A DNA stretch of 64,000 nt from Rhizobium sp. FKY42 (GTDB taxonomy: Bacteria > Pseudomonadota > Alphaproteobacteria > Rhizobiales > Rhizobiaceae). Position 1 is the stretch's first letter. Each line of letters starts with the position of its first letter. The stretch lies in the NCBI RefSeq assembly GCF_005222835.1, contig NZ_STGA01000029.1, forward strand, positions 868,001-932,000, in the 5' to 3' direction. The notes below the pieces were generated by a model, which was not told the DNA's origin, did no database searches, and saw nothing but the letters and a program-made list of their open reading frames with translations. Position numbers and translations under genes: made by a program. Below are positions 22,557-46,488 of this stretch, one piece after another.

Positions 22557-23387
22557 ATGAAGGACGACGTGTTTCAGGTAAAGTTCTGGGGAACGCGCGG
22601 CAGCGTTCCGGTCTCAGGACCAGACTTCATCCATTATGGGGGGAATACGGCCTGCGTGGAGGTCCGCTGCGGGACACACCGGCTGCTCTTCGATGCCGGC
22701 TCGGGCATCCGCGAGGCGGGCCTCGATATGCTCGCCGAGAGCACGCCGGAGGTCGATCTATTCTTCACTCATGTTCACTATGACCACATTATCGGGCTGC
22801 CATTTTTCAAGCCGATGTACGTGCCAAGCACTGTCGTCAACATGTGGTCCGGACATCTGCACGGCGTGATGACGACGGGGGAGATGATCGAGCAATTCAT
22901 CAGCCCTCCCTTCTTCCCGATCAAGCTGGATATCTGCAAGGCTTCCTTGGCATTCAGGGATTTCAAACCTGGAGACATCCTGACGCCTCGCCCGGGCATA
23001 ACGCTCAAGACTTTCTCCCTCAACCACCCCGGCGGTTGCGTAGGCTATCGCGTGGAATGGGAAGGTCGCTCCGTCGCTCTCGTATTCGATCTGGAACATG
23101 TTCCGGGCCAGTTGGATCCCGTTGCGCTCGAAATGATGCAAGGGGCAGACCTAGCAATCTATGATTCGGCATTCACCGATGCGGAAATGCAGCGCTATTG
23201 CGGCTTTGGCCACTCCAGCTGGGAGCAGGCAGTCAAACTGGCTGATACGGCCAAGACTAAAAACCTCGCGCTTTTCCATCACGCACCATCACGCACCGAC
23301 AATGAAATGGCGCTAATGGAACGTCTGGCGCAGGAACACTTCGCCAACACCTTCGCTGCTCGCGATGGAATGGTCGTCTCGCTTTAA
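22557..23387 (+). CDS. Metallo-beta-lactamase-fold hydrolase
   Basis: The 276-residue protein has the MBL metal signature THVHYDH (His72, His74, Asp76, His77), a later His in SLNHPGG, Asp in VFDLEH and a last His in LFHHAPSR. The opening FWGTRGSVPVSGPDFIHYGG is typical of the RNase Z / phosphodiesterase-like branch, whose substrates are phosphodiesters. It stands 131 bp before the cyclase gene cyaC on the same strand. A cyclic-nucleotide phosphodiesterase role is therefore attractive, but this is inference from neighbours; the sequence itself gives only the fold and metal site. Confidence 0.85.
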   Translation: MKDDVFQVKFWGTRGSVPVSGPDFIHYGGNTACVEVRCGTHRLLFDAGSGIREAGLDMLAESTPEVDLFFTHVHYDHIIGLPFFKPMYVPSTVVNMWSGHLHGVMTTGEMIEQFISPPFFPIKLDICKASLAFRDFKPGDILTPRPGITLKTFSLNHPGGCVGYRVEWEGRSVALVFDLEHVPGQLDPVALEMMQGADLAIYDSAFTDAEMQRYCGFGHSSWEQAVKLADTAKTKNLALFHHAPSRTDNEMALMERLAQEHFANTFAARDGMVVSL

Positions 23388-23518
23388 TCCTGCCACCCTT
23401 TCGACCGAATCGCCGAAGACAAGCAAAACCCATTGATGCGGTCGCAGGCCCGGACGTTTACAGAGGACCGCAAAGCTGCCATTTCTGCATCGAGTATGGA
23501 CCAACGAGTCGAGGATGC

Positions 23519-25240
23519 ATGGCCGCTGGGGCGATACGATCAATAGTGACGGAGCGCCAGTTGCGGCGCGTACGGCTCCTGTCAGGCCTGATCATCTTCA
23601 CCTTCCTCGCAATGCATATGACCAACCATGTGTTCGGCCTCATCTCGGTCGAGATGGCAGACTACGCCCGACGCTGGTTCTTGCCGATCTGGCGCAACAA
23701 GATCGGCTCGATCCTTCTCTACGGCTCCTTCATCGTCCACATCATTCTTGTGCTCGGCTCGCTTTACATGCGCCGCAGCCTTGCAATGCCATGGTCGGAA
23801 GCCGCGCAGATCACGCTTGGTCTCCTTGTACCGGTTCTCCTGATCGATCATATCGTCGCAACCCGCCTCTCATCCTCCCTGTTCTATTTGCGGGACAGCT
23901 ACGAGACGGTCGTCCATACCCTGTGGAGCAAATCGCCGTTCAACGGTGCAAAGCAATCTCTCGCGCTGGTCGTGATCTGGCTGCATGGCTGCATCGGCAT
24001 TCATTTCTGGCTGAGATACCGTCCCTGGTATTCCGCCATCTGGCCAGGTGTCCTGACGATCGGCATTCTTCTGCCGACACTCTCGTTGCTGGGTTTCGTC
24101 CAGATGGGACGCACCATGGCAACGCCTGTCTACCTGCTAAGCGGCTATCCCGGCGGATACTACGACCCGACCTTACTCTCGGCGGATGCCAATGCCACCC
24201 TGATGCGGATCCGTATTACACTGCACGGAACCTTTCTGGCCGCGGTGCTCGGCGTCTTTGCGCTGCGTGCCTTGCGCTGGCTGAGGGAGCGGGCTCACCT
24301 CATCACCATCCGGTATCCCGGGGGCGAGGCCATCAGTGTACCTCGAGGATACACTGTTCTGGAGGCAAGCCGAATGGTAGGCCGTCCTCACTATGCGGTA
24401 TGCGGGGGAAAGGGCCGCTGTTCGACATGTCGCGTTCAGGTCATTGAAGGAGAGGACAATCTTCCGGCCTGCGATCCGCAGGAAGAGCGGACACTCTCCC
24501 GCATCAAAGCCGGCAAAGGCGTACGTCTTGCCTGTCAACTGCGCCCGACCGGACCTGTTACCGTAACACCCTTGCTCATGGCCAAAACGCCCTCGGAGGA
24601 AGCGCCGGACAGTTACGAGGCCATTCCGGGACGCGAGCGTGAAATCGCGGTTCTCTTTTGCGATATCCGTAACTTTACAACGCTGACCGAAAGCCGGTTG
24701 CCGTTCGATATCGTTTTTCTCCTGAACCGCTATTTCAACGTTGTCGGGCAGGCGGTAGAGCAGGCTGGCGGCCGCATGGACAAGTTCATCGGCGATGGGG
24801 CCATGGCGCTGTTCGGCATAACCGGTTCCGAAGAGCTTGCCTGCCGACAGGCGCTGGACGCAGCGCGCCGCATCATCGAGGGGATCGAAAACCTGAACGA
24901 ACAGCTTTCGGGAGAGCTTCCTGATCCGCTTCGAATCGCGATCGGCATTCACACGGGCCCGGCGGTGGTCGGAACTCTGGGTTACAGCAATGCACGCACG
25001 CTGACAGCCATTGGCGATACGGTGAACGTTGCTAGCCGTCTGGAAGCGGTTGCCAAGGATCTGGATACGAAGCTCGTGATGTCCGCTCCCGTTGCGGATC
25101 TGGCAGGCCTGGACTTCTCTTCCATCCCCAGCCGCGAGATCAGCGTTCGTGGAAGAACCGAACCACTGAAGGTCTACGTCTTCGAAAAGGGTGTCAGAAA
25201 GGCGCTTAAGGGCCTCGATCTGGATCCAGGCTCAGCGTAG
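23519..25240 (+). CDS. cyaC: Haem-anchored, ferredoxin-containing adenylate cyclase CyaC
   Basis: The 573-residue protein joins three parts. Residues 15-255 form a six-helix membrane anchor with histidines at 33, 37, 74, 111, 156, 162 and 236, like the dihaem-B anchor of succinate dehydrogenases. Residues 260-350 form a [2Fe-2S] ferredoxin domain (Cys295, Cys301, Cys304, Cys339). From about 372 a class III cyclase follows, with metal Asp382 in LFCDIRNFT and Asp426 in FIGDGAMALFG, purine-selecting Lys422, and GDTVNVASRLE. Sinorhizobium meliloti CyaC has this build and is reported as an adenylate cyclase responding to quinone redox state. It is the first of three cyclase-fold genes in a row. 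Confidence 0.92.
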   Translation: MAAGAIRSIVTERQLRRVRLLSGLIIFTFLAMHMTNHVFGLISVEMADYARRWFLPIWRNKIGSILLYGSFIVHIILVLGSLYMRRSLAMPWSEAAQITLGLLVPVLLIDHIVATRLSSSLFYLRDSYETVVHTLWSKSPFNGAKQSLALVVIWLHGCIGIHFWLRYRPWYSAIWPGVLTIGILLPTLSLLGFVQMGRTMATPVYLLSGYPGGYYDPTLLSADANATLMRIRITLHGTFLAAVLGVFALRALRWLRERAHLITIRYPGGEAISVPRGYTVLEASRMVGRPHYAVCGGKGRCSTCRVQVIEGEDNLPACDPQEERTLSRIKAGKGVRLACQLRPTGPVTVTPLLMAKTPSEEAPDSYEAIPGREREIAVLFCDIRNFTTLTESRLPFDIVFLLNRYFNVVGQAVEQAGGRMDKFIGDGAMALFGITGSEELACRQALDAARRIIEGIENLNEQLSGELPDPLRIAIGIHTGPAVVGTLGYSNARTLTAIGDTVNVASRLEAVAKDLDTKLVMSAPVADLAGLDFSSIPSREISVRGRTEPLKVYVFEKGVRKALKGLDLDPGSA

Positions 25241-25292
25241 TGGACCAGAGAATGCGCGTGCGCCCACCAAGACTTCATGTTAGCCTCTTTTC

Positions 25293-26456
25293 ATGCAATC
25301 CGAGAGCAACGATTTTTTCTATTCCGTCCTTCCCGTTCTAACGCGGTTCGAAGATGTGACGGATGCGGAAAATTACACCTCTCTTCCGGACGACTGGTTC
25401 CTGGCGCTTGCCGATATCGTTGGTTCAACGGGCGCAATCGCGGAAGGACGATACAAGGATGTGAACATGGCGGGCGCCAGCGTCATATCCGCAATCCTCA
25501 ACGTGCTGGACCAAACGGACTATCCGTTTGTCTTCGGTGGAGACGGCGCCCTTGTTGCCATTCCGCCCACAAAGCGATTGGATGCACGTCAGGCACTTTC
25601 TTCGGTTTGCAGTTGGGTCAAAGAGGAATTGCGCCTTGATATGCGTGTTGCTCTCGTTCCAATGAAGGACGTGCGCAAGGCGGGACGCGATGTGGGCGTT
25701 GCACGGTTTGCGGCAAGCCCATCGGTATCATACGCCATGTTCAATGGCGGCGGTGCCAGCTGGGCCGAACAGCAAATGAAGGCAGGGCACTTTCTCATCA
25801 AGGAGGAGAGCGCCGCCCATCCGGATCTCACAGGCCTTTCCTGCCGCTGGGACGCGATCCCGAGCCAGCGAGGTCAGATCGTCTCACTCATCGTCAGCCC
25901 AACGTCGCCGTCGACGATGAATGAGTTTCGAGATCTGATGGTCAGACTGATAGCGATCACCAGCCATACCTCAAGAAACGGAAATCCGGTACCCGCGGAG
26001 GGGCCGCCGTTGCGCTACAACGCACAGAACATTGAGCGGGAAGCCCATGCGACGGCACCACCGGACAAGAGAAGCGCGCGAAAATGGGCGATCCGGATGC
26101 AGATCTGGCTTACGATCCTGCTCTATCGCTTCAATCTGTCATTGGGACGCTTCAATGCGCGCCAGTATGCTCGGGACGTGGCCCAGAATTCGGACTTCCG
26201 CAAGTTTGACGACGGCCTCAAGATGACACTCGATGTAGATGCCGATCAGCTTAAGCAGATCCGATCCTTGCTGGAGACCGGAAAAGGCAATGGCATCTGT
26301 GACTATGGCCTGCACAGTCAGGACAGCGCGCTGATGACCTGCCTTGTTTTCAATCCGCTTTCCCACAACCATGTCCATTTCATCGATGGCGCAAGCGGGG
26401 GATATGCACTGGCAGCCAGCCAATTGGTGAACAGGCCCAAACCGATGCGCCCGTAA
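25293..26456 (+). CDS. DUF3095 protein with a cyclase-like fold
   Basis: The 387-residue protein matches the DUF3095 pattern as I know it. Near the N-terminus WFLALADIVGSTGAIAEGRY and PFVFGGDGALVAI resemble the two metal-binding segments of class III nucleotide cyclases, so a related fold is likely. The usual purine-selecting lysine (normally four residues before the G-D of GDG) is not present: the segment reads YPFVFGGDG. The C-terminal half (MTLDVDADQLKQIRSLLETG; YGLHSQDSALMTCLV) is a separate region conserved in this family. Activity is unknown. It starts 52 bp after cyaC on the same strand and may share its transcript. Confidence 0.75.
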   Translation: MQSESNDFFYSVLPVLTRFEDVTDAENYTSLPDDWFLALADIVGSTGAIAEGRYKDVNMAGASVISAILNVLDQTDYPFVFGGDGALVAIPPTKRLDARQALSSVCSWVKEELRLDMRVALVPMKDVRKAGRDVGVARFAASPSVSYAMFNGGGASWAEQQMKAGHFLIKEESAAHPDLTGLSCRWDAIPSQRGQIVSLIVSPTSPSTMNEFRDLMVRLIAITSHTSRNGNPVPAEGPPLRYNAQNIEREAHATAPPDKRSARKWAIRMQIWLTILLYRFNLSLGRFNARQYARDVAQNSDFRKFDDGLKMTLDVDADQLKQIRSLLETGKGNGICDYGLHSQDSALMTCLVFNPLSHNHVHFIDGASGGYALAASQLVNRPKPMRP

Positions 26457-26782
26457 ACATCAATCAGGTTTGTCGCTCGACCGACGGAATTTCAACCGGC
26501 CATCGGAAAATTTCCAGAGAGCGGGCTTGTTTGAGGAATGGTCCATACCAAACTGATGTGCGTATTTGGCTATACTCATATATAGTCATTCCCGAAGCGG
26601 GTCGTGAGCCTCCAGTGCCTCTTCCTCGCTTCAGGCTTCGTTTTGCTAGCATGGCATCTTCGCAAGGCCGTCGAGTATTTTGCGTTCACCATGCTTGAGA
26701 TGATGCGCTTCCGGATCACCGGGCTCGCAGGACCTACACGACAGTGCCCAAGCACGGGCACGGATCTCTTCAAGGCATTGCT
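26457..26782 (+). other. Gap between DUF3095 gene and second cyclase; possible small ORF
   Basis: This 326-bp stretch has no recognised gene. One small frame, GTG 26604 to stop 26786, would code 60 residues with a hydrophobic start (CLFLASGFVLLAWHL) and overlap the next ATG as ATGA at 26783, the arrangement of coupled genes. The upstream half includes an AT-rich palindromic patch (ACTCATATATAGT, about 26574-26586) that could hold a promoter. Neither is certain. Confidence 0.3.
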
Positions 26783-28129
26783 ATGACGACAGCTCCTGTT
26801 TCCTCGATCTTCATGGACAAGGTTGCCGACTGGCTGACCCGAACGGCTCTTTCCGGGGCCTCTCTCGAGCAGATTGTCCGCGGCTTCTGCGAGCGTATCG
26901 CCGCAGCGGGGCTGCCTGTCATTCGCGTACATCTTTCCTTTGCGATGCTGCATCCTCTTTACGATGCGCTCGGCTTCACCTGGCGACAGCAAAGCGGATT
27001 GGAAATCGAGGGTTACCGCCACGACAACGGCAACAACGACGTTTTCCTGAAAAGCCCCTACTTCCAGCTCCTGAGCAATGGACTGGACTATCTGCGCCGC
27101 AAGATACCGGCTGAGGGTCCGGTAGAATTTCCGGTCTTCGAGGATCTGCGGCGCGAGAATGTCACGGATTATATCGCCTTCATGCAGCCGTTCGGCGACG
27201 ATTCAGTGCAGGGCATGATGGGTTCCTGGTCGACAGACGCGCCCGGCGGCTTCACCGAGGAAATGGTCGGCGCCCTCATGCGGCTTCAAAACCATCTGGC
27301 CGTCGCCGCCAAGATGGCAGTCCTGGACAAGCTCGCCAGCAACATGCTGACCACCTATTTAGGCATGGATGCCGGGCAGCGGGTTCTGAAGGGGCAGGTT
27401 CGCCGCGGCGATGGTGAGACGATCCGGGCCGCGCTTGTGATGGGCGACATGCGCGAATCGACATCGCTGGCCGATCAGGAAAGCCGTCAGGATTACATCG
27501 ACACGCTGAACGCCTTTTTTGATGCTCTGGCGGCTCCCTTCAATCGCAATGGCGGCCAGATCCTGAGCTTTCTTGGTGACGGCTTCCTTGCGGTCTATCC
27601 CTGTGACAGACATCGCGAACCATCCCGCGAGGCAGCGCAGGCGGCCATGTCGGCCGTCAGGCAGGCACAGATCCGGATGGAGGATCTCAATGCCGAGCGT
27701 CGAAAGACAGGTCTCGACCCGATTTCATTTGGCCTTGGCCTTCACATCGGCAATGTCATGTTCGGCAATGTGGGGCTGCGTGACCGGTTGACTTTTTCCG
27801 CCTTCGGCTCCGCCGTCAATGAAGTCGTCCGCCTTCAGGAGCTGACGAAGAAGCATGAGTGCGACGTGATCGCCAGCGAAGCCTTTGCGGATTATTGCGA
27901 GGGTGAGTGGATCAAACTCGGAGACCGCAAGCTGCGCGGCGTGTACCAGAAGGTGACGATCATGAAGCCCGCTCCCGTAACGGATGCCTTGAGGCGGGAT
28001 GATGTGGTGGCTGACCTTCGGCACCAGGCACTTTCAGAAGCCGAAAGGCTGATCCTGCTGCACCGCGACGCGGCGGCAGGCAAACCGGACAAGCAAGCCC
28101 CGCGCCTCCTTGATAAATTTCTGCAATAG
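26783..28129 (+). CDS. Class III nucleotide cyclase-like protein with altered purine site
   Basis: The 448-residue protein has an N-terminal domain (about 1-200) rich in aromatic and acidic residues with no family that I recognise. A C-terminal class III cyclase domain follows. Metal aspartates are present: Asp222 in VMGDMREST and Asp266 in FLGDGFLAVY. The residues that select adenine are changed: Ser262 stands where the lysine is expected and Ser343 (FGSAVNEVVRLQ) where Asp is expected, while the transition-state Asn346 and Arg350 are kept. It may use another nucleotide or be weakly active. ATG 26783 was chosen; the frame is open to 26744. Confidence 0.82.
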   Translation: MTTAPVSSIFMDKVADWLTRTALSGASLEQIVRGFCERIAAAGLPVIRVHLSFAMLHPLYDALGFTWRQQSGLEIEGYRHDNGNNDVFLKSPYFQLLSNGLDYLRRKIPAEGPVEFPVFEDLRRENVTDYIAFMQPFGDDSVQGMMGSWSTDAPGGFTEEMVGALMRLQNHLAVAAKMAVLDKLASNMLTTYLGMDAGQRVLKGQVRRGDGETIRAALVMGDMRESTSLADQESRQDYIDTLNAFFDALAAPFNRNGGQILSFLGDGFLAVYPCDRHREPSREAAQAAMSAVRQAQIRMEDLNAERRKTGLDPISFGLGLHIGNVMFGNVGLRDRLTFSAFGSAVNEVVRLQELTKKHECDVIASEAFADYCEGEWIKLGDRKLRGVYQKVTIMKPAPVTDALRRDDVVADLRHQALSEAERLILLHRDAAAGKPDKQAPRLLDKFLQ

Positions 28130-28248
28130 GCCTGTAGCTACGTTTTGAACATCTGCTTGATGGTCTGCCCTTGGAAGGCGCTACAAAACTGCTAGTTTCT
28201 CCATACGGCTGGCTTATATCCGCGCAAGGCCGATGTGATGGAGAGACG

Positions 28249-28272
28249 ATGAAGCAGGCTACCTGTCGATGA
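28249..28272 (+). CDS. Possible 7-residue leader peptide before the ABC-like gene
   Basis: GGAGAG followed by ATG 28249 opens a frame MKQATCR that stops at 28272, overlapping the next gene's ATG as ATGA. It may give the downstream gene its ribosomes by coupling, since that gene has no good ribosome-binding site of its own. It is too short to support by coding signals. Confidence 0.3.
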   Translation: MKQATCR

Positions 28273-30989
28273 GGATGGAAAAGGGACTAGCGCGGTACAT
28301 CTGGCGCAATACCTCGCGGCAGCAATTGTGGATTCTTGCGATCGTTGCCCTGTCGATGATCCCCTACTTCCTGTCGTTCGACCTGCCGAAGCAGATCGTC
28401 AACGGACCGATTCAGGGCCAGGGCTTCGAGGATGTCGATGCTACGCGCACATTCATGGAGTTGTCTCCGACACTTCCGCTGATCGGAGAAGTTCATCTGT
28501 TCAGCGGTTTCGAGCTCGACCGGCTGCAGACTCTCCTCGCACTCAGCTTCGTGTTTCTCGGCCTCGTCGTCCTCAACGGTCTCTTCAAATTCTACATCAA
28601 TACCTACAAGGGACGACTTGGCGAACGGATGCTAAGGCGCATCCGCTTCGATCTGATAGACCGTGTCCTGCGCTTCCCACCGAACCAGTTCAAAAAGGTA
28701 AAGTCGGCCGAGATCGCCACCATGATCAAGGACGAGGTCGAGCCTCTCGGCGGCTTCACAGGCGATGCCTTTGTTCAGCCCGCGCTTCTGGGCGGTCAGG
28801 CCATTACCGCGCTCGCCTTCATCATCATCCAGAATTTCTGGCTGGGCATGATTGCGGCGGGCATCGTTTGTGTACAGGCCATCATCATTCCGCGCATGAG
28901 GCGGCGCCTGCTCGAACTGGGCCGCCAGCGCCAGTTGACGGCGAGACAGCTTTCAGGACGCGTGAGCGAAATCGTTGACGGAATTCACTCCATCCACGCG
29001 CATGACACCTCGAACCTCGAGAGGGCAGACATTGCCCAGCGACTGGGCCTGATCTTCAACATTCGCTATGACCTTTACCAGTGGAAGTTCCTCGTCAAGT
29101 TCATCAATAACTTCCTGGCGCAGGTCACGCCCTTCCTGTTCTATGTCATCGGTGGCTATCTTGCCCTGCAGGGTCGTCTGGACATCGGGCAGCTGGTGGC
29201 GGTCATCGCGGCCTACAAGGATCTTCCTGGCCCTTTGAAGGAACTGATAGACTGGGATCAGGCACGCCAGGATGTTCAGGTGAAATACGCCCAGGTGGTC
29301 GAGCAGTTCGACGTTGAACCTCTTGTGCCCGCCACTGTGCAGACCGTGATGCGGGAGCCCGTCGAGAGGCTGGCTGCTCCGCTGGTCGCATCGCATCTTC
29401 TTGTGACCGACGATAGCGGAGCACCCATTCTCAACCGGGTATCGCTGGAAATCCAGCCGAACGAGACAATTGCGGTCCTCGGTCAAAATGGCGCTGGCGG
29501 CGAGGCCATAGCGGAAGCGTTCGGTCGCGTCGTCTGGCCGGATAGCGGCAAGATCACGATTGGCGGGCAGGATATTCTGGAGATGCCGGAATCGGTCACC
29601 GGTCGCCGTATAAGCTTTGCCTCCTCCGACGCGCACTTCTTTCACGGCACGTTGCGTGACAATCTGTTCTACGGCCTGAAACATGCGCCCCTGACGGAAA
29701 CGACCTACAAGGGCAGCGAGGCGAGAGCATTCAAGCGAAACCTGCTGGAAGCGCAGCGATCGGGAAATCCATCGTTTGACCTCAACAGCGACTGGATCGA
29801 CTATGACGCAGCCGGTGCCACAGGCCCTGACGACCTTCTCAAGGTTATTCGTCCCGTTCTCGATGCTGTGATGATTTCACAGGATATCTTCGATCTGGCA
29901 CTGCGTTCCAAGGTCGATCTTGCGGCCCATCCAGCCATGAGCGAGGTGATCGTCGATGTTCGCGCAGCGTTGCAAAGGCGTCTGGCGGAGGAGGATCTCG
30001 AGGGAACGGTGGTGCCGTTCCAGCCGGACAGCTACAACGATCAGGCGACCGTTGGCGAAAACCTGCTGTTTGGAACCATGAAACAGTCGATGCTGACACC
30101 CGCCACGCTCGCCGCACATCCCTATTTCAAGCAGATCATGCGGGAAACGGGGTTGAGCAACGAGCTTTACGCCATGGGTCTCGAAATTGCTGAGACTGCC
30201 GTCGAGCTGTTCCGTGATTTGCCTCCAGACAATCCGTTTTTCCAACAGCTCACCTTCATGTCCGCTGAAGACATTCCCGCCTATCAGGAACTACTGCAAT
30301 CGCTCAAAGGAACAACGGCTGAAGATGTCTCCTCCAAAGACCGTATCAACATTATTCGCTTGAGCTTTGCCTATATCGAGCCACGGCACCGCTTTGGCCT
30401 TTTGACGCCTGACCTGCGTGACAAGATCGTCAAGGCGCGCCAGAGCTTCTATGCCGATCTGCCAGAAGATCTGGCGACCATGATCGAGCGGCACGATCCA
30501 GCCAAGTTTTCGGAGTCCGCCTCCCTCATCGACAATGTGCTGTTCGGCCGCATCGCCTATAGTGAGGCGGATGCATCAGATCGCATCAAGCGCATCGCCC
30601 GCGATATCTTTGCCGACATGGATCTGGAACACAATGTCCTGTCGATCGGGCTCGATTTCGATGTGGGTACGCAAGGTCGTCGCCTTACCAATGTGCAGCG
30701 GCAAAAGCTGAACCTCGCGCGAGCGCTCTTGAAGCGGTCGGATTACTTCATTTTCAATCGGCCACTGCCGGCACTGGACCAGAGAGCGCAGGACCAGATC
30801 GTAACAAATGTCATGCGCGACCTGCACAGGGATGGTTATCGACCGGCAATCATCTGGGTTCTGCCCACCGCCGATGTTGCGCAACTTTTCGATCGTGTTC
30901 TGGTTTTCAAGGGCGGAAACCTTGTCGAAAACGGCTGCTATGATGAAGTTTTCGATAAAAACGGTATGTTCAAGCAATTGGTCTCATAA
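28269..30989 (+). CDS. Giant ABC exporter-like protein without ATPase motifs
   Basis: The 906-residue protein begins like a type I ABC exporter: membrane helices near 18-36, 85-106, 172-205 and 285-305, with RIRFDLIDRVLRFPPNQFKKVKSAEIATMI as the usual first cytosolic loop. The nucleotide-binding part is degenerate. The Walker A position reads GQNGAGGE (about 404-411), lacking Lys and Ser/Thr. The signature position reads LTNVQ (about 805), and Walker B ends in FIFNRP (about 825) without Asp-Glu. About 300 extra residues lie inside this domain, and the motif D/E-N-x-L-F/Y-G recurs three times (about 463, 597, 755). ATP-driven transport is unlikely; a sensing or scaffold role is inferred. Confidence 0.82.
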   Translation: MRMEKGLARYIWRNTSRQQLWILAIVALSMIPYFLSFDLPKQIVNGPIQGQGFEDVDATRTFMELSPTLPLIGEVHLFSGFELDRLQTLLALSFVFLGLVVLNGLFKFYINTYKGRLGERMLRRIRFDLIDRVLRFPPNQFKKVKSAEIATMIKDEVEPLGGFTGDAFVQPALLGGQAITALAFIIIQNFWLGMIAAGIVCVQAIIIPRMRRRLLELGRQRQLTARQLSGRVSEIVDGIHSIHAHDTSNLERADIAQRLGLIFNIRYDLYQWKFLVKFINNFLAQVTPFLFYVIGGYLALQGRLDIGQLVAVIAAYKDLPGPLKELIDWDQARQDVQVKYAQVVEQFDVEPLVPATVQTVMREPVERLAAPLVASHLLVTDDSGAPILNRVSLEIQPNETIAVLGQNGAGGEAIAEAFGRVVWPDSGKITIGGQDILEMPESVTGRRISFASSDAHFFHGTLRDNLFYGLKHAPLTETTYKGSEARAFKRNLLEAQRSGNPSFDLNSDWIDYDAAGATGPDDLLKVIRPVLDAVMISQDIFDLALRSKVDLAAHPAMSEVIVDVRAALQRRLAEEDLEGTVVPFQPDSYNDQATVGENLLFGTMKQSMLTPATLAAHPYFKQIMRETGLSNELYAMGLEIAETAVELFRDLPPDNPFFQQLTFMSAEDIPAYQELLQSLKGTTAEDVSSKDRINIIRLSFAYIEPRHRFGLLTPDLRDKIVKARQSFYADLPEDLATMIERHDPAKFSESASLIDNVLFGRIAYSEADASDRIKRIARDIFADMDLEHNVLSIGLDFDVGTQGRRLTNVQRQKLNLARALLKRSDYFIFNRPLPALDQRAQDQIVTNVMRDLHRDGYRPAIIWVLPTADVAQLFDRVLVFKGGNLVENGCYDEVFDKNGMFKQLVS

Positions 30990-31019
30990 TATCGTAGTAT
31001 CGGAGGAACAGGGGTAGGT

Positions 31020-31490
31020 GTGCGGATGTTGCTGAAAGAAGAAGTCGAAATGCTGCGGCGTGTGCCGCTGTTTTCGAAGATCGCTCCGGCGAAACTGAAG
31101 CTCTTGGCTTTTGCTTCCGAACGCCTTAACTGCCGAGAGGGACAAAACCTGTTCCGTCAGGGCGATCCCGGCGATGCCGCCTATGTGGTGCTTTCGGGCA
31201 CGGCGGACGTTCTGGTCAATTCGAATGGCGATGAAGTAAAAGTTGCCGATGTCGAGCAAAACTCGATCGTCGGCGAGATCGCCATCCTGTGCGATGTTTC
31301 GCGCACCGCGACCGTCCGGGCAACCTCACGCCTTGAGGTCCTGAAGATCAGCAAGGAGAATTTTCTAGGGCTGATGAATGATTTCCCGGATATGGCGGTT
31401 GAGATCATGCGTGTCCTCGCCGACCGCTTGAACCACACGACCTCCGAATTGACTGCTGCGCGCGTTCGTGAACAGCGCGCGACAACCTGA
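31020..31490 (+). CDS. Stand-alone cyclic-nucleotide-binding domain protein
   Basis: The 156-residue protein is one cNMP-binding domain without a DNA-binding domain. The beta-barrel starts with LFRQGDPGDAAYVVLSGTADV, and the phosphate-binding cassette reads VGEIAILCDVSRTATV, keeping the Glu and Arg that hold ribose and phosphate in CRP and protein kinase A regulatory subunits. A helical C-terminus (AVEIMRVLADRLNHTTSEL) follows. It begins 30 bp after the ABC-like gene and is probably coexpressed; it could carry the cAMP signal to that membrane protein. Start is GTG 31020 or ATG 31026. Confidence 0.87.
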   Translation: MRMLLKEEVEMLRRVPLFSKIAPAKLKLLAFASERLNCREGQNLFRQGDPGDAAYVVLSGTADVLVNSNGDEVKVADVEQNSIVGEIAILCDVSRTATVRATSRLEVLKISKENFLGLMNDFPDMAVEIMRVLADRLNHTTSELTAARVREQRATT

Positions 31491-45721: not shown

Positions 45722-45765
45722 GTGGAATGGAAGCATCCTTAAGAAGCCGCTATAACGAGCGTGCC

Positions 45766-46488
45766 ATGGATATTTCGCGCCTCGACATTCACAACTCCGA
45801 TATTCCCGAACTTTGCAAAAGCTGCGAGGTTCGCCACAAAGGCATGTGCGGCGCCCTGAACGCGATGGAGCTAACGTTTCTTTCGAAACACACACGGCAA
45901 ATCAGCCAGCCCGCCGGTGAGGAACTGGTTGGCGAAAGCACCGATATCGATGCCTATGACAACATCATCCGGGGTGTGGTGAAACTCTCCAAGACGCTCG
46001 AAGATGGCCGCCAACAAATTGTGGGATTGCAATTCGCGCCGGATCTCGTCGGTAGGCTCTATGCCAGCGAAAGCCCGATGACCGCTGAAGCCGCATCGGA
46101 TGTGGATGTCTGCCGTGTACCGCGGCGCATTCTGGAAAGACTGATCGACGGAAACCCGGAACTTCGCAAAAGACTAATGGATCAGTCGCTGCGTGAACTG
46201 GATGAGGCACGCGACTGGATGGTAACGCTCGGCCGCAAGACCGCTGCCGAAAAAGTTGCCAGTCTGCTTCTGCTGATTGCCACGCATCTGGATCCGGACG
46301 CAGAAGGGGAGAAACGGGTTTTCGATCTCCCCGTCTCGCGCCTGGATATCGCCGATTATCTCGGCCTGACGATTGAAACCGTCTCCCGCCAGCTTTCAAA
46401 GCTCAAGGGCGAGAAGGTCATCTCGATTACCGCAAACCGCCACATAGAGGTTCTTAGTTTTACTAAATTGCGCGTTCGGGCGGGGTAA
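45766..46488 (+). CDS. fnrN: Oxygen-sensing transcription factor FnrN
   Basis: The 240-residue CRP/FNR protein carries the four cysteines of an oxygen-sensitive [4Fe-4S] cluster: Cys17, Cys20 and Cys28 in LCKSCEVRHKGMC, and Cys116 in VDVCRVPR. The HTH has SRLDIADYLGLTIETVSRQL, with the E-x-x-S-R recognition core of FNR, matching the TTGAT/ATCAA box upstream. It should activate genes for low-oxygen life such as hemN. ATG 45766 was chosen from family alignment; the frame is open to 45727. Confidence 0.94.
   Translation: MDISRLDIHNSDIPELCKSCEVRHKGMCGALNAMELTFLSKHTRQISQPAGEELVGESTDIDAYDNIIRGVVKLSKTLEDGRQQIVGLQFAPDLVGRLYASESPMTAEAASDVDVCRVPRRILERLIDGNPELRKRLMDQSLRELDEARDWMVTLGRKTAAEKVASLLLLIATHLDPDAEGEKRVFDLPVSRLDIADYLGLTIETVSRQLSKLKGEKVISITANRHIEVLSFTKLRVRAG

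Follow-up and report, generated by a model that had tools for sequence, protein, structure and literature searches.

What is the function of three cyclase-like proteins, a metallo-hydrolase, a degenerate ABC exporter and a small cyclic-nucleotide-binding protein that are encoded side by side in a rhizobial genome? The genes lie in a 64,000-nucleotide stretch of Rhizobium sp. FKY42 (contig NZ_STGA01000029.1, positions 868,001 to 932,000), hereafter the window, where six open reading frames (ORFs), all on the plus strand at 22557-31490, encode in this order a hydrolase of the metallo-beta-lactamase fold (MBL), a CyaC-like cyclase, a DUF3095 protein, a second cyclase (Cyc2), a pseudo-ABC membrane protein (pABC) and a protein consisting of a cyclic-nucleotide-binding domain (CNBD), here termed cNMP. 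We tentatively propose, at a probability of about 0.4, that the six genes provide an envelope-glycan system of the Alphaproteobacteria with its cyclic-nucleotide signalling arm, in which pABC would be the cNMP-gated membrane component. The conserved core of the cluster is the pABC-cNMP pair, and the deepest association of this pair is with a glycan locus and rarely with cyclases.

The pABC protein matches the ABC exporter membrane domain (PF00664, 69.3 bits, cut-off 28) and, partially, ABC_tran (48.8 bits). Both its membrane domain and its nucleotide-binding domain (NBD) align with MsbA and other ABC exporters (TIGR02203, 182.4 bits; Foldseek matches with E-values of 1.9e-13 and above). It differs from these exporters in a score far from the TIGR02203 cut-off (602), an NBD insertion of about 310 residues, a CNBD partner or CNBD fusion, and the lack of an intact ATPase motif set in all 74 aligned rows. 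The GK[ST] motif is present in 2 of these rows, the Walker B DE in 2 and a loose signature in 7, while no row has all three; two ordinary ABC genes served as the control for the patterns, of which both matched GK[ST], one the signature and the other DE. In the window protein, G411/E412 occupy the positions of the Walker A Lys-Ser/Thr, and N830/R831 those of the Walker B Asp-Glu. The Walker A Lys is gone in all 15 grouped rows from the window's order as well as in two ungrouped ones (L049 and L057). Since proteins from other orders mostly show GKD, GKE, GRD or GRE at this place, we think that the decay of the ATPase motifs is old and proceeded stepwise. The insertion contains two extra copies of an xNxLFG-like motif, which normally follows the Q-loop; they match loose patterns in 71 and 70 of the 74 rows, respectively. 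We read the insertion as a tripled helical subdomain, which the predicted structure permits without proving it. Among 33 rows, 191 of the 350 positions of the membrane domain are invariant vs 104 of the 556 elsewhere. Because the membrane domain is thus the most conserved part, the protein is, judging by its conservation, under selection and no pseudogene. A profile of the pABC insertion matched 131 of 385 genomes of the class (87/277 genera), 47 of 101 genomes of the family, and 31 of 398 genomes in a phylum-wide draw, all 31 of them from the same class. The nearest named relative (76% identity) is from Agrobacterium vitis.

The cNMP protein is a bare CNBD (PF00027, 74.5 bits, cut-off 27.5) with an intact phosphate-binding cassette, the Arg and Gly of which are kept in 60 of 60 rows and the Glu in 58, so that nucleotide binding may be expected of it. 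To describe its linkage to pABC, we used 58 loci from 57 of the 131 positive genomes (41 family labels), which were chosen for spread and not randomly; 57 of the loci come from other orders and one (L181) is the second copy in the window genome itself. The cNMP gene lies 3' of pABC on the same strand in 46 loci and is fused to the pABC C-terminus in another 10, while 2 loci gave no cNMP match. A following gene was defined as a same-strand cNMP match starting 2.3-3.7 kb after the pABC start. By script 44 loci qualified; L208 and L218 were added, because the match is present in both although the ORF call had extended too far upstream. One further locus (L228), with a partial pABC match (188 bits) and no cNMP match, was excluded; with it, cNMP would be missing from 3 of 59. 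In the named loci, which are the best 80 of 444 and come mostly from Rhizobium, cNMP follows pABC in every case (80/80). The fusion was confirmed by Pfam in plasmid proteins of Sulfitobacter and Azospirillum. Since some lineages have the two as a fusion and most others have them side by side, they probably act as one complex, as far as gene arrangement can indicate it. A link between CNBDs and transporters is already a known idea: fusions of CNBDs with major facilitator superfamily (MFS) transporters are named in the accessible part of a review (PMC10710835), and TIGR03896 comprises bacteriocin-type transport-associated cNMP proteins. The window protein is distinct from the latter family (44.8 bits vs a cut-off of 161). 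No description of the pseudo-ABC/CNBD pair or of its locus was found in the literature searched, a library outside of which most subscription journals lie.

The surroundings of the pair point to envelope glycans, a context that the original prediction had missed. At least three of four recurring glycosyltransferase (GT) families were found near pABC in 40 of the 58 class-wide loci vs 1 of 30 control loci, which were chosen by DUF3095 alone, and in 69 of the 80 named loci. Genes for a histidine phosphatase (36 of the 58 vs 5 of the 30), a deacetylase-like protein (31 vs 2) and a methyltransferase (28 vs 0) accompany them. The corresponding numbers for the remaining window families are 5 vs 8 for cyclases, 1 vs 2 for MBL and 0 vs 30 for DUF3095, and this rarity near class-wide pairs places local messenger synthesis outside the deep design. 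Cyclase, MBL and DUF3095 genes occur in 20, 18 and 10 of the 80 named loci, respectively, these counts being low bounds because the 10-kb flanks cut the locus. Pfam identifies a GT28-type C-terminal domain in two of the neighbouring GTs and group 1 domains in two, as well as a UDP-sugar dehydrogenase, a polysaccharide lyase, a family 5 solute-binding protein and a histidine phosphatase. For the deacetylase-like neighbour Pfam gives no match over a cut-off and for the methyltransferase no match at all, so both names are taken from the records, in which some neighbours are annotated as polysaccharide deacetylase. In Sulfitobacter, for example, the gene order is nucleotide-sugar dehydrogenase, GT, GT4, GT4, histidine phosphatase, GT, deacetylase and the pABC-CNBD fusion.

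Within the window's own order, the signalling genes and the glycan genes meet. Plasmid pRL11 of R. johnstonii 3841 carries all six window families (56-77% identity) within 31 kb (56.2-87.3 kb), together with three GTs, an importer, a nucleotide-sugar dehydrogenase, methyltransferases, a GT4 and a deacetylase. R. etli p42e shows five of these families in the stretch read, which breaks off short of the place of MBL, and on S. meliloti pSymB, where CyaC is absent from the stretch, five make up one 22-kb run. We also read up to about 19 kb to either side of pABC in 10 genera of the same family, some stretches stopping at a contig end; these genera are among the 15 best rows of the 47 positives in 101 genomes. 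The cNMP, MBL and GT_B families were found in all 10 of them, Cyc2 and GT_A/C/D in 9, DUF3095 in 8 and CyaC in 1. The last number is a low bound, because in pRL11 CyaC and pABC are 22 kb apart. In 8 of these 10 genera, five of the six families share one locus with glycan genes. Parts of the set also adjoin the pair in four other families of the order: MBL and a cyclase in L049, L057 and L264, CyaC, MBL and DUF3095 in L037, and DUF3095 and Cyc2 in L070.

The compact six-gene order is confined to one clade of the pABC tree. The window falls into a supported clade of six rows (100/99), with L071, L072, L106, L128 and L133, which comprises compact cyclase-first loci and is nested among GT-first loci. 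Besides the window, the order is complete only in L128 and L133, since L071 and L072 are without DUF3095 and L106 is without Cyc2. The window genome contains a second pABC-cNMP pair (contig C44, about 84000-122900; L181, L257), the pABC of which is 54% identical to the first; this pair adjoins glycosyltransferase, importer, nucleotide-sugar dehydrogenase and deacetylase-like genes.

The gathering of cyclase-fold genes at 22557-31490 exceeds chance, because two of the three PF00211 matches over the cut-off in the 4.9-Mb window genome and its only DUF3095 gene lie within 4.7 kb. The CyaC-like protein combines Fer2 (37.3 bits, cut-off 21) and Guanylate_cyc (76.5 bits) domains. His33/37/74/111/156 of its membrane domain (candidate ligands of two haems), Cys295/301/304/339 of the [2Fe-2S] domain, which precedes the cyclase domain, and D382/K422/D426/D500/N503/R507 are invariant in 11 of 11 rows, and the last set we take to be the active residues of a class III adenylate cyclase. 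The protein resembles S. meliloti CyaC (SMc01818), a redox-regulated adenylate cyclase, in a putative anchor of six transmembrane helices, the conserved transmembrane His residues, the [2Fe-2S] domain and the class III cyclase domain. S. meliloti CyaC is described with this layout and as quinone-responsive in the accessible part of PMC10463352, where variants K410/T484 and N491/R495 are also named. The window protein differs in having Asp500 where CyaC seems to have T484, and the neighbours of S. meliloti cyaC are TetR and LysR genes instead of the window set. The CyaC-type N-terminal half is encoded somewhere in 6 of 7 genomes searched, in one of them split over two ORFs.

Cyc2 (Guanylate_cyc, 32.9 bits) keeps D223, D267, N347, R351 and S263 in 14 of 14 rows. 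If the residue roles known for class III cyclases apply, as we presume here, the metal-binding Asp pair and the transition-state Asn and Arg are retained and the base-reading residues are altered: Ser263 replaces the Lys (14/14), and the Asp is replaced by Ser (Ala in one row). With Ser instead of the base-reading Lys, the messenger, judging from the sequence, need not be cAMP.

DUF3095 (PF11294, 455.9 bits, cut-off 22.2) has an invariant D41 (DIV-ST motif) and an invariant GGD84G motif in 11 of 11 rows. Its profile gave no match by sequence to solved chains. Residues 5-384 of its predicted structure (predicted local distance difference test score, pLDDT, 80) align with structures of tandem cyclases (Z 10-13, 8-11% identity). 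The best match is 6yii, a class III adenylyl cyclase-like ATP-binding protein of P. aeruginosa (Z 13.2, root-mean-square deviation 4.4 over 269 residues, only 10% identity), followed by AC9 and human soluble AC (Z 10-13). Since the model aligns with tandem cyclases over nearly its full length, DUF3095 looks like a two-lobed cyclase-homology protein. The family, unnamed in the literature searched, occurs in 70 of the 249 genomes from the order. Among 40 stretches around DUF3095 genes of the order, 34 are without pABC (in genome G187 the pABC gene lies just outside the stretch), and DUF3095 seems to have additional contexts.

The MBL protein (Lactamase_B_2, 68.1 bits) has an intact HxHxDH site, with H72, H74, D76, H77, D178 and H241 invariant in 8 of 8 rows. 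It scores below the cut-offs for RNase Z (80.8 vs 252 bits) and for the model of MBL-fold cyclic-nucleotide phosphodiesterases NF041851 (41.4 vs 400 bits), and among solved chains the four that come nearest to it belong to RNase Z or ELAC1. The 'GPMC system' of NCBIfam likewise has an MBL hydrolase and a GT4 transferase among its named members, but the window and locus proteins score far below the respective cut-offs (17/360 and 37-39/400 bits). The hydrolase family given in the original prediction stood, its phosphodiesterase-like branch being a possible assignment. The remaining identifications made there were all recovered: six consecutive genes on one strand, with ORFs and Pfam in agreement; three cyclase-fold proteins, two of them by Pfam and DUF3095 by predicted structure; the CyaC-like cyclase; an exporter-like protein devoid of ATPase motifs; and a stand-alone CNBD of 156 residues.

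Taken together, these data suggest the following scheme. Cyc2, CyaC and perhaps DUF3095 would synthesize a cyclic nucleotide, and the MBL enzyme would remove it or process a related intermediate. The small cNMP protein would bind the messenger and, as a subunit of pABC, switch it. Because pABC looks unable to act as an ATPase, we propose that the cyclic-nucleotide state of the partner replaces ATP as the switch, and that pABC moves or hands over a lipid-linked glycan made by the glycosyltransferases of the locus. In most of the class, the pABC-cNMP pair may read the general cyclic-nucleotide pool of the cell; within the window's order, it would have been joined by a synthesis of its own (Cyc2, CyaC, perhaps DUF3095) and by the MBL hydrolase. 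A broader version, possible if doubtful, would have a class-wide set of ABC exporters in which a cyclic nucleotide has taken over from ATP, the NBDs being dead and enlarged by helical repeats and the CNBD, whether separate or fused, gating the membrane domain for the release of an envelope glycan. Were the scheme true, cyclic nucleotides would gain a direct, non-transcriptional membrane target in much of the Alphaproteobacteria, and it would be clear why dead ATPase sites occur in proteins recorded as 'ABC transporter ATP-binding protein' and encoded beside a 'Crp/Fnr regulator'. It would also tie second-messenger signalling to the surface glycan, which root-colonising bacteria may need, so that an internal messenger may control the bacterial coat; DUF3095 would gain a predicted fold and one context.

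Other explanations differ from this scheme mainly in what pABC and cNMP do. Instead of being a transporter, pABC could serve together with cNMP as a scaffold or receptor by which glycosyltransferases are recruited to the membrane or regulated there, as the lack of an intact ATPase motif set in all 74 rows, the long NBD insertion and the adjoining GT genes would allow; the strong conservation of the membrane domain, however, suits a working membrane path, and we consider the scaffold somewhat unlikely. The original prediction had treated the six genes as one functional unit in which the redox state of the respiratory chain is passed through cAMP to the last two proteins. Its first part holds up well, since the neighbourhood is conserved past close relatives, within the limits of the compact order given above, and pABC-cNMP is a real pair. 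The second part, in which the CyaC-like cyclase senses the quinone or redox state and cAMP acts on cNMP and pABC, is possible where CyaC is present. Its layout and residues are intact, the S. meliloti protein is quinone-responsive in the portion of PMC10463352 at hand, the N-terminal half recurs in most genomes searched, and cyoABCD, encoding ubiquinol oxidase, lies a few genes past the locus in three Rhizobium plasmids read (L250, L266 and L267). Placing such a circuit at the centre is not supported, because the pair belongs to the glycan locus, CyaC is the rarest nearby partner and Cyc2 has the base-reading Ser. One of the 10 same-family genera shows CyaC in the stretches of about 19 kb beside pABC, and 10 of the 80 named loci show it within 10 kb (both low bounds), few class-wide pairs are near any cyclase, and the S. 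meliloti stretch has Cyc2 without CyaC. As the main function, redox control is distinctly unlikely.

It is still less probable that cNMP merely keeps the fold, as a structural subunit of pABC or a receptor of another ligand, with the nearby cyclases acting on global regulators. The pair is indeed mostly without a cyclase nearby, and the solved stand-alone relative 5d1i, which keeps the Gly-Glu and Arg of the cassette, reads RLTGA where the window reads RTATV; against this stands the retention of the cassette Gly, Glu and Arg in nearly every row. An anti-phage system of the Pycsar type, in which the messenger of a cyclase opens a membrane effector, is most improbable. The PADLOC models PycC and PycTIR gave partial matches, but among the six proteins only cyclase and cNMP-binding segments match, and pABC is spread across 87 of 277 genera of the class in glycan loci.

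To return to the proposed signalling arm of a glycan system, a number of observations weigh against it. The stretches read around the 58 class-wide pairs show a cyclase in 5, MBL in 1 and DUF3095 in none, and 17 of them have none of the four GT families. The GT genes of the window genome sit elsewhere, beside the second pABC-cNMP pair. The structure closest to DUF3095 bears the title of an ATP-binding cyclase-like protein, so that DUF3095 may be no cyclase. The membrane part of the pABC model is weak (pLDDT 71, predicted TM-score 0.53), and the TM-scores of the fold matches, taken by query length, are 0.12-0.26. Promoter and terminator scans of the window gave signals not above those of shuffled sequences, and a Clr-type box was found 0 times in the window vs 0.5 expected.

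Mutant phenotypes of the R. johnstonii locus could be linked to these genes by the order of tags. The RefSeq tags of pRL11 climb by five per gene from repA, with one later tag inserted and one number missing; the old tags were assigned by counting, and the links to phenotypes hold only if this numbering holds. By count, pRL110043 is an MFS gene, as expected of the arabinose efflux permease described under that tag in the accessible part of PMC11406972. If the numbering holds, pRL110056 corresponds to the nucleotide-sugar dehydrogenase, pRL110066 to the CyaC-like cyclase and pRL110071 to the MBL gene. In the available excerpts, pRL110056 appears in a list as an enzyme of the O-antigen with importance for root colonisation (PMC11103875), and a pRL110071 mutant showed 28, 33 and 20% of the wild-type attachment to pea roots, each figure for one of three pH values (PMC11406972). 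The latter phenotype is not specific, because the gene is also given there as essential or growth-defective in some growth screens. Both pRL110066 and pRL110071 are among 14 loci of a transposon screen for Ni/Co tolerance, according to the accessible part of PMC6266702. The chance of finding 2 of the 14 loci among six genes is about 6e-5, assuming 7,000 genes, and this double match is strong only if the tag numbering holds. For S. meliloti, the portions at hand report that SMb20804 and SMb20805, which may flank this locus, affect the capsule (PMC5539429), and, against a broad role, remark of a variant in SMb20811, a possible member of the locus, that there is no sign of the gene being important for growth, stress or symbiosis (PMC6180224). 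The pRL11 locus also contains a RES/Xre toxin-antitoxin pair (78.9-80.0 kb), and a RelE-type gene lies just past cNMP (55.9-56.2 kb).

The pABC homologue of S. meliloti at 842-844 kb of pSymB was considered as a candidate for MsbA2 (SMb21191), and this was ruled out by position and sequence: the MsbA2 operon lies at about 938 kb and matches only over a 107-residue NBD stretch. A likeness is that the MsbA-like protein of that operon adjoins glycosyltransferases too, as given in the accessible text of PMC3687685. SMb20813, called the msbA homologue of S. meliloti in the available part of PMC10945364, is perhaps the pABC gene. In strain 1021 (L265, pSymB 805000-850000) the pABC gene has one base more than the query copy and appears as two ORFs, of 113 and 762 residues. 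Other strains carry intact copies, and this is either a strain difference or a sequencing error. Genome G401 has three matches to the pABC profile, and the two that were read (L231 and L232) are CNBD fusions, which suggests an expansion of pABC within its family label (f74).

The features of the cluster are listed in the table below. The gaps between the genes, in gene order, are 131, 52, about 290-330, 139 and 30 bases; the adopted start of Cyc2 is a GTG, with an alternative ATG 39 bases downstream.

Features of the six-gene cluster, with positions counted from the first nucleotide of the window
Feature	Position	Strand	Remarks
MBL-fold metallo-hydrolase, 276 aa	22557..23387	+	HxHxDH site intact; candidate messenger- or glycan-processing hydrolase
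CyaC-like cyclase, 573 aa	23519..25240	+	Six-helix haem-anchor-like, [2Fe-2S] and class III adenylate cyclase domains
DUF3095 protein, 387 aa	25293..26456	+	Predicted tandem cyclase-homology domains
Cyc2	26744..28129	+	Class III cyclase, N-terminal part unnamed
pABC, 906 aa	28269..30989	+	ABC exporter-like membrane protein, pseudo-ATPase
Walker A remnant of pABC	29481..29504	+	Without Lys and without Ser/Thr
pABC stretch of about 310 residues, Q-loop region to signature remnant	29709..30638	+	Two extra xNxLFG-like motif copies
pABC signature remnant (LTNVQ) to Walker B remnant (FIFNRP)	30684..30764	+	
cNMP, 156 aa	31020..31490	+	Stand-alone cyclic-nucleotide-binding protein
cNMP phosphate-binding cassette (GEIAILCDVSRTATV)	31272..31316	+	Gly 60/60, Glu 58/60, Arg 60/60 rows

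The cluster is flanked by genes for PPK2 and an unknown protein upstream and for a PRC-barrel protein downstream, none of which had a match in the 40 DUF3095-gene loci of the order or in 65 further loci. The window genome has seven PF00027 genes in total, and a Crp/Fnr-like protein encoded at 45727-46488 of the window is the weakest of these seven matches.

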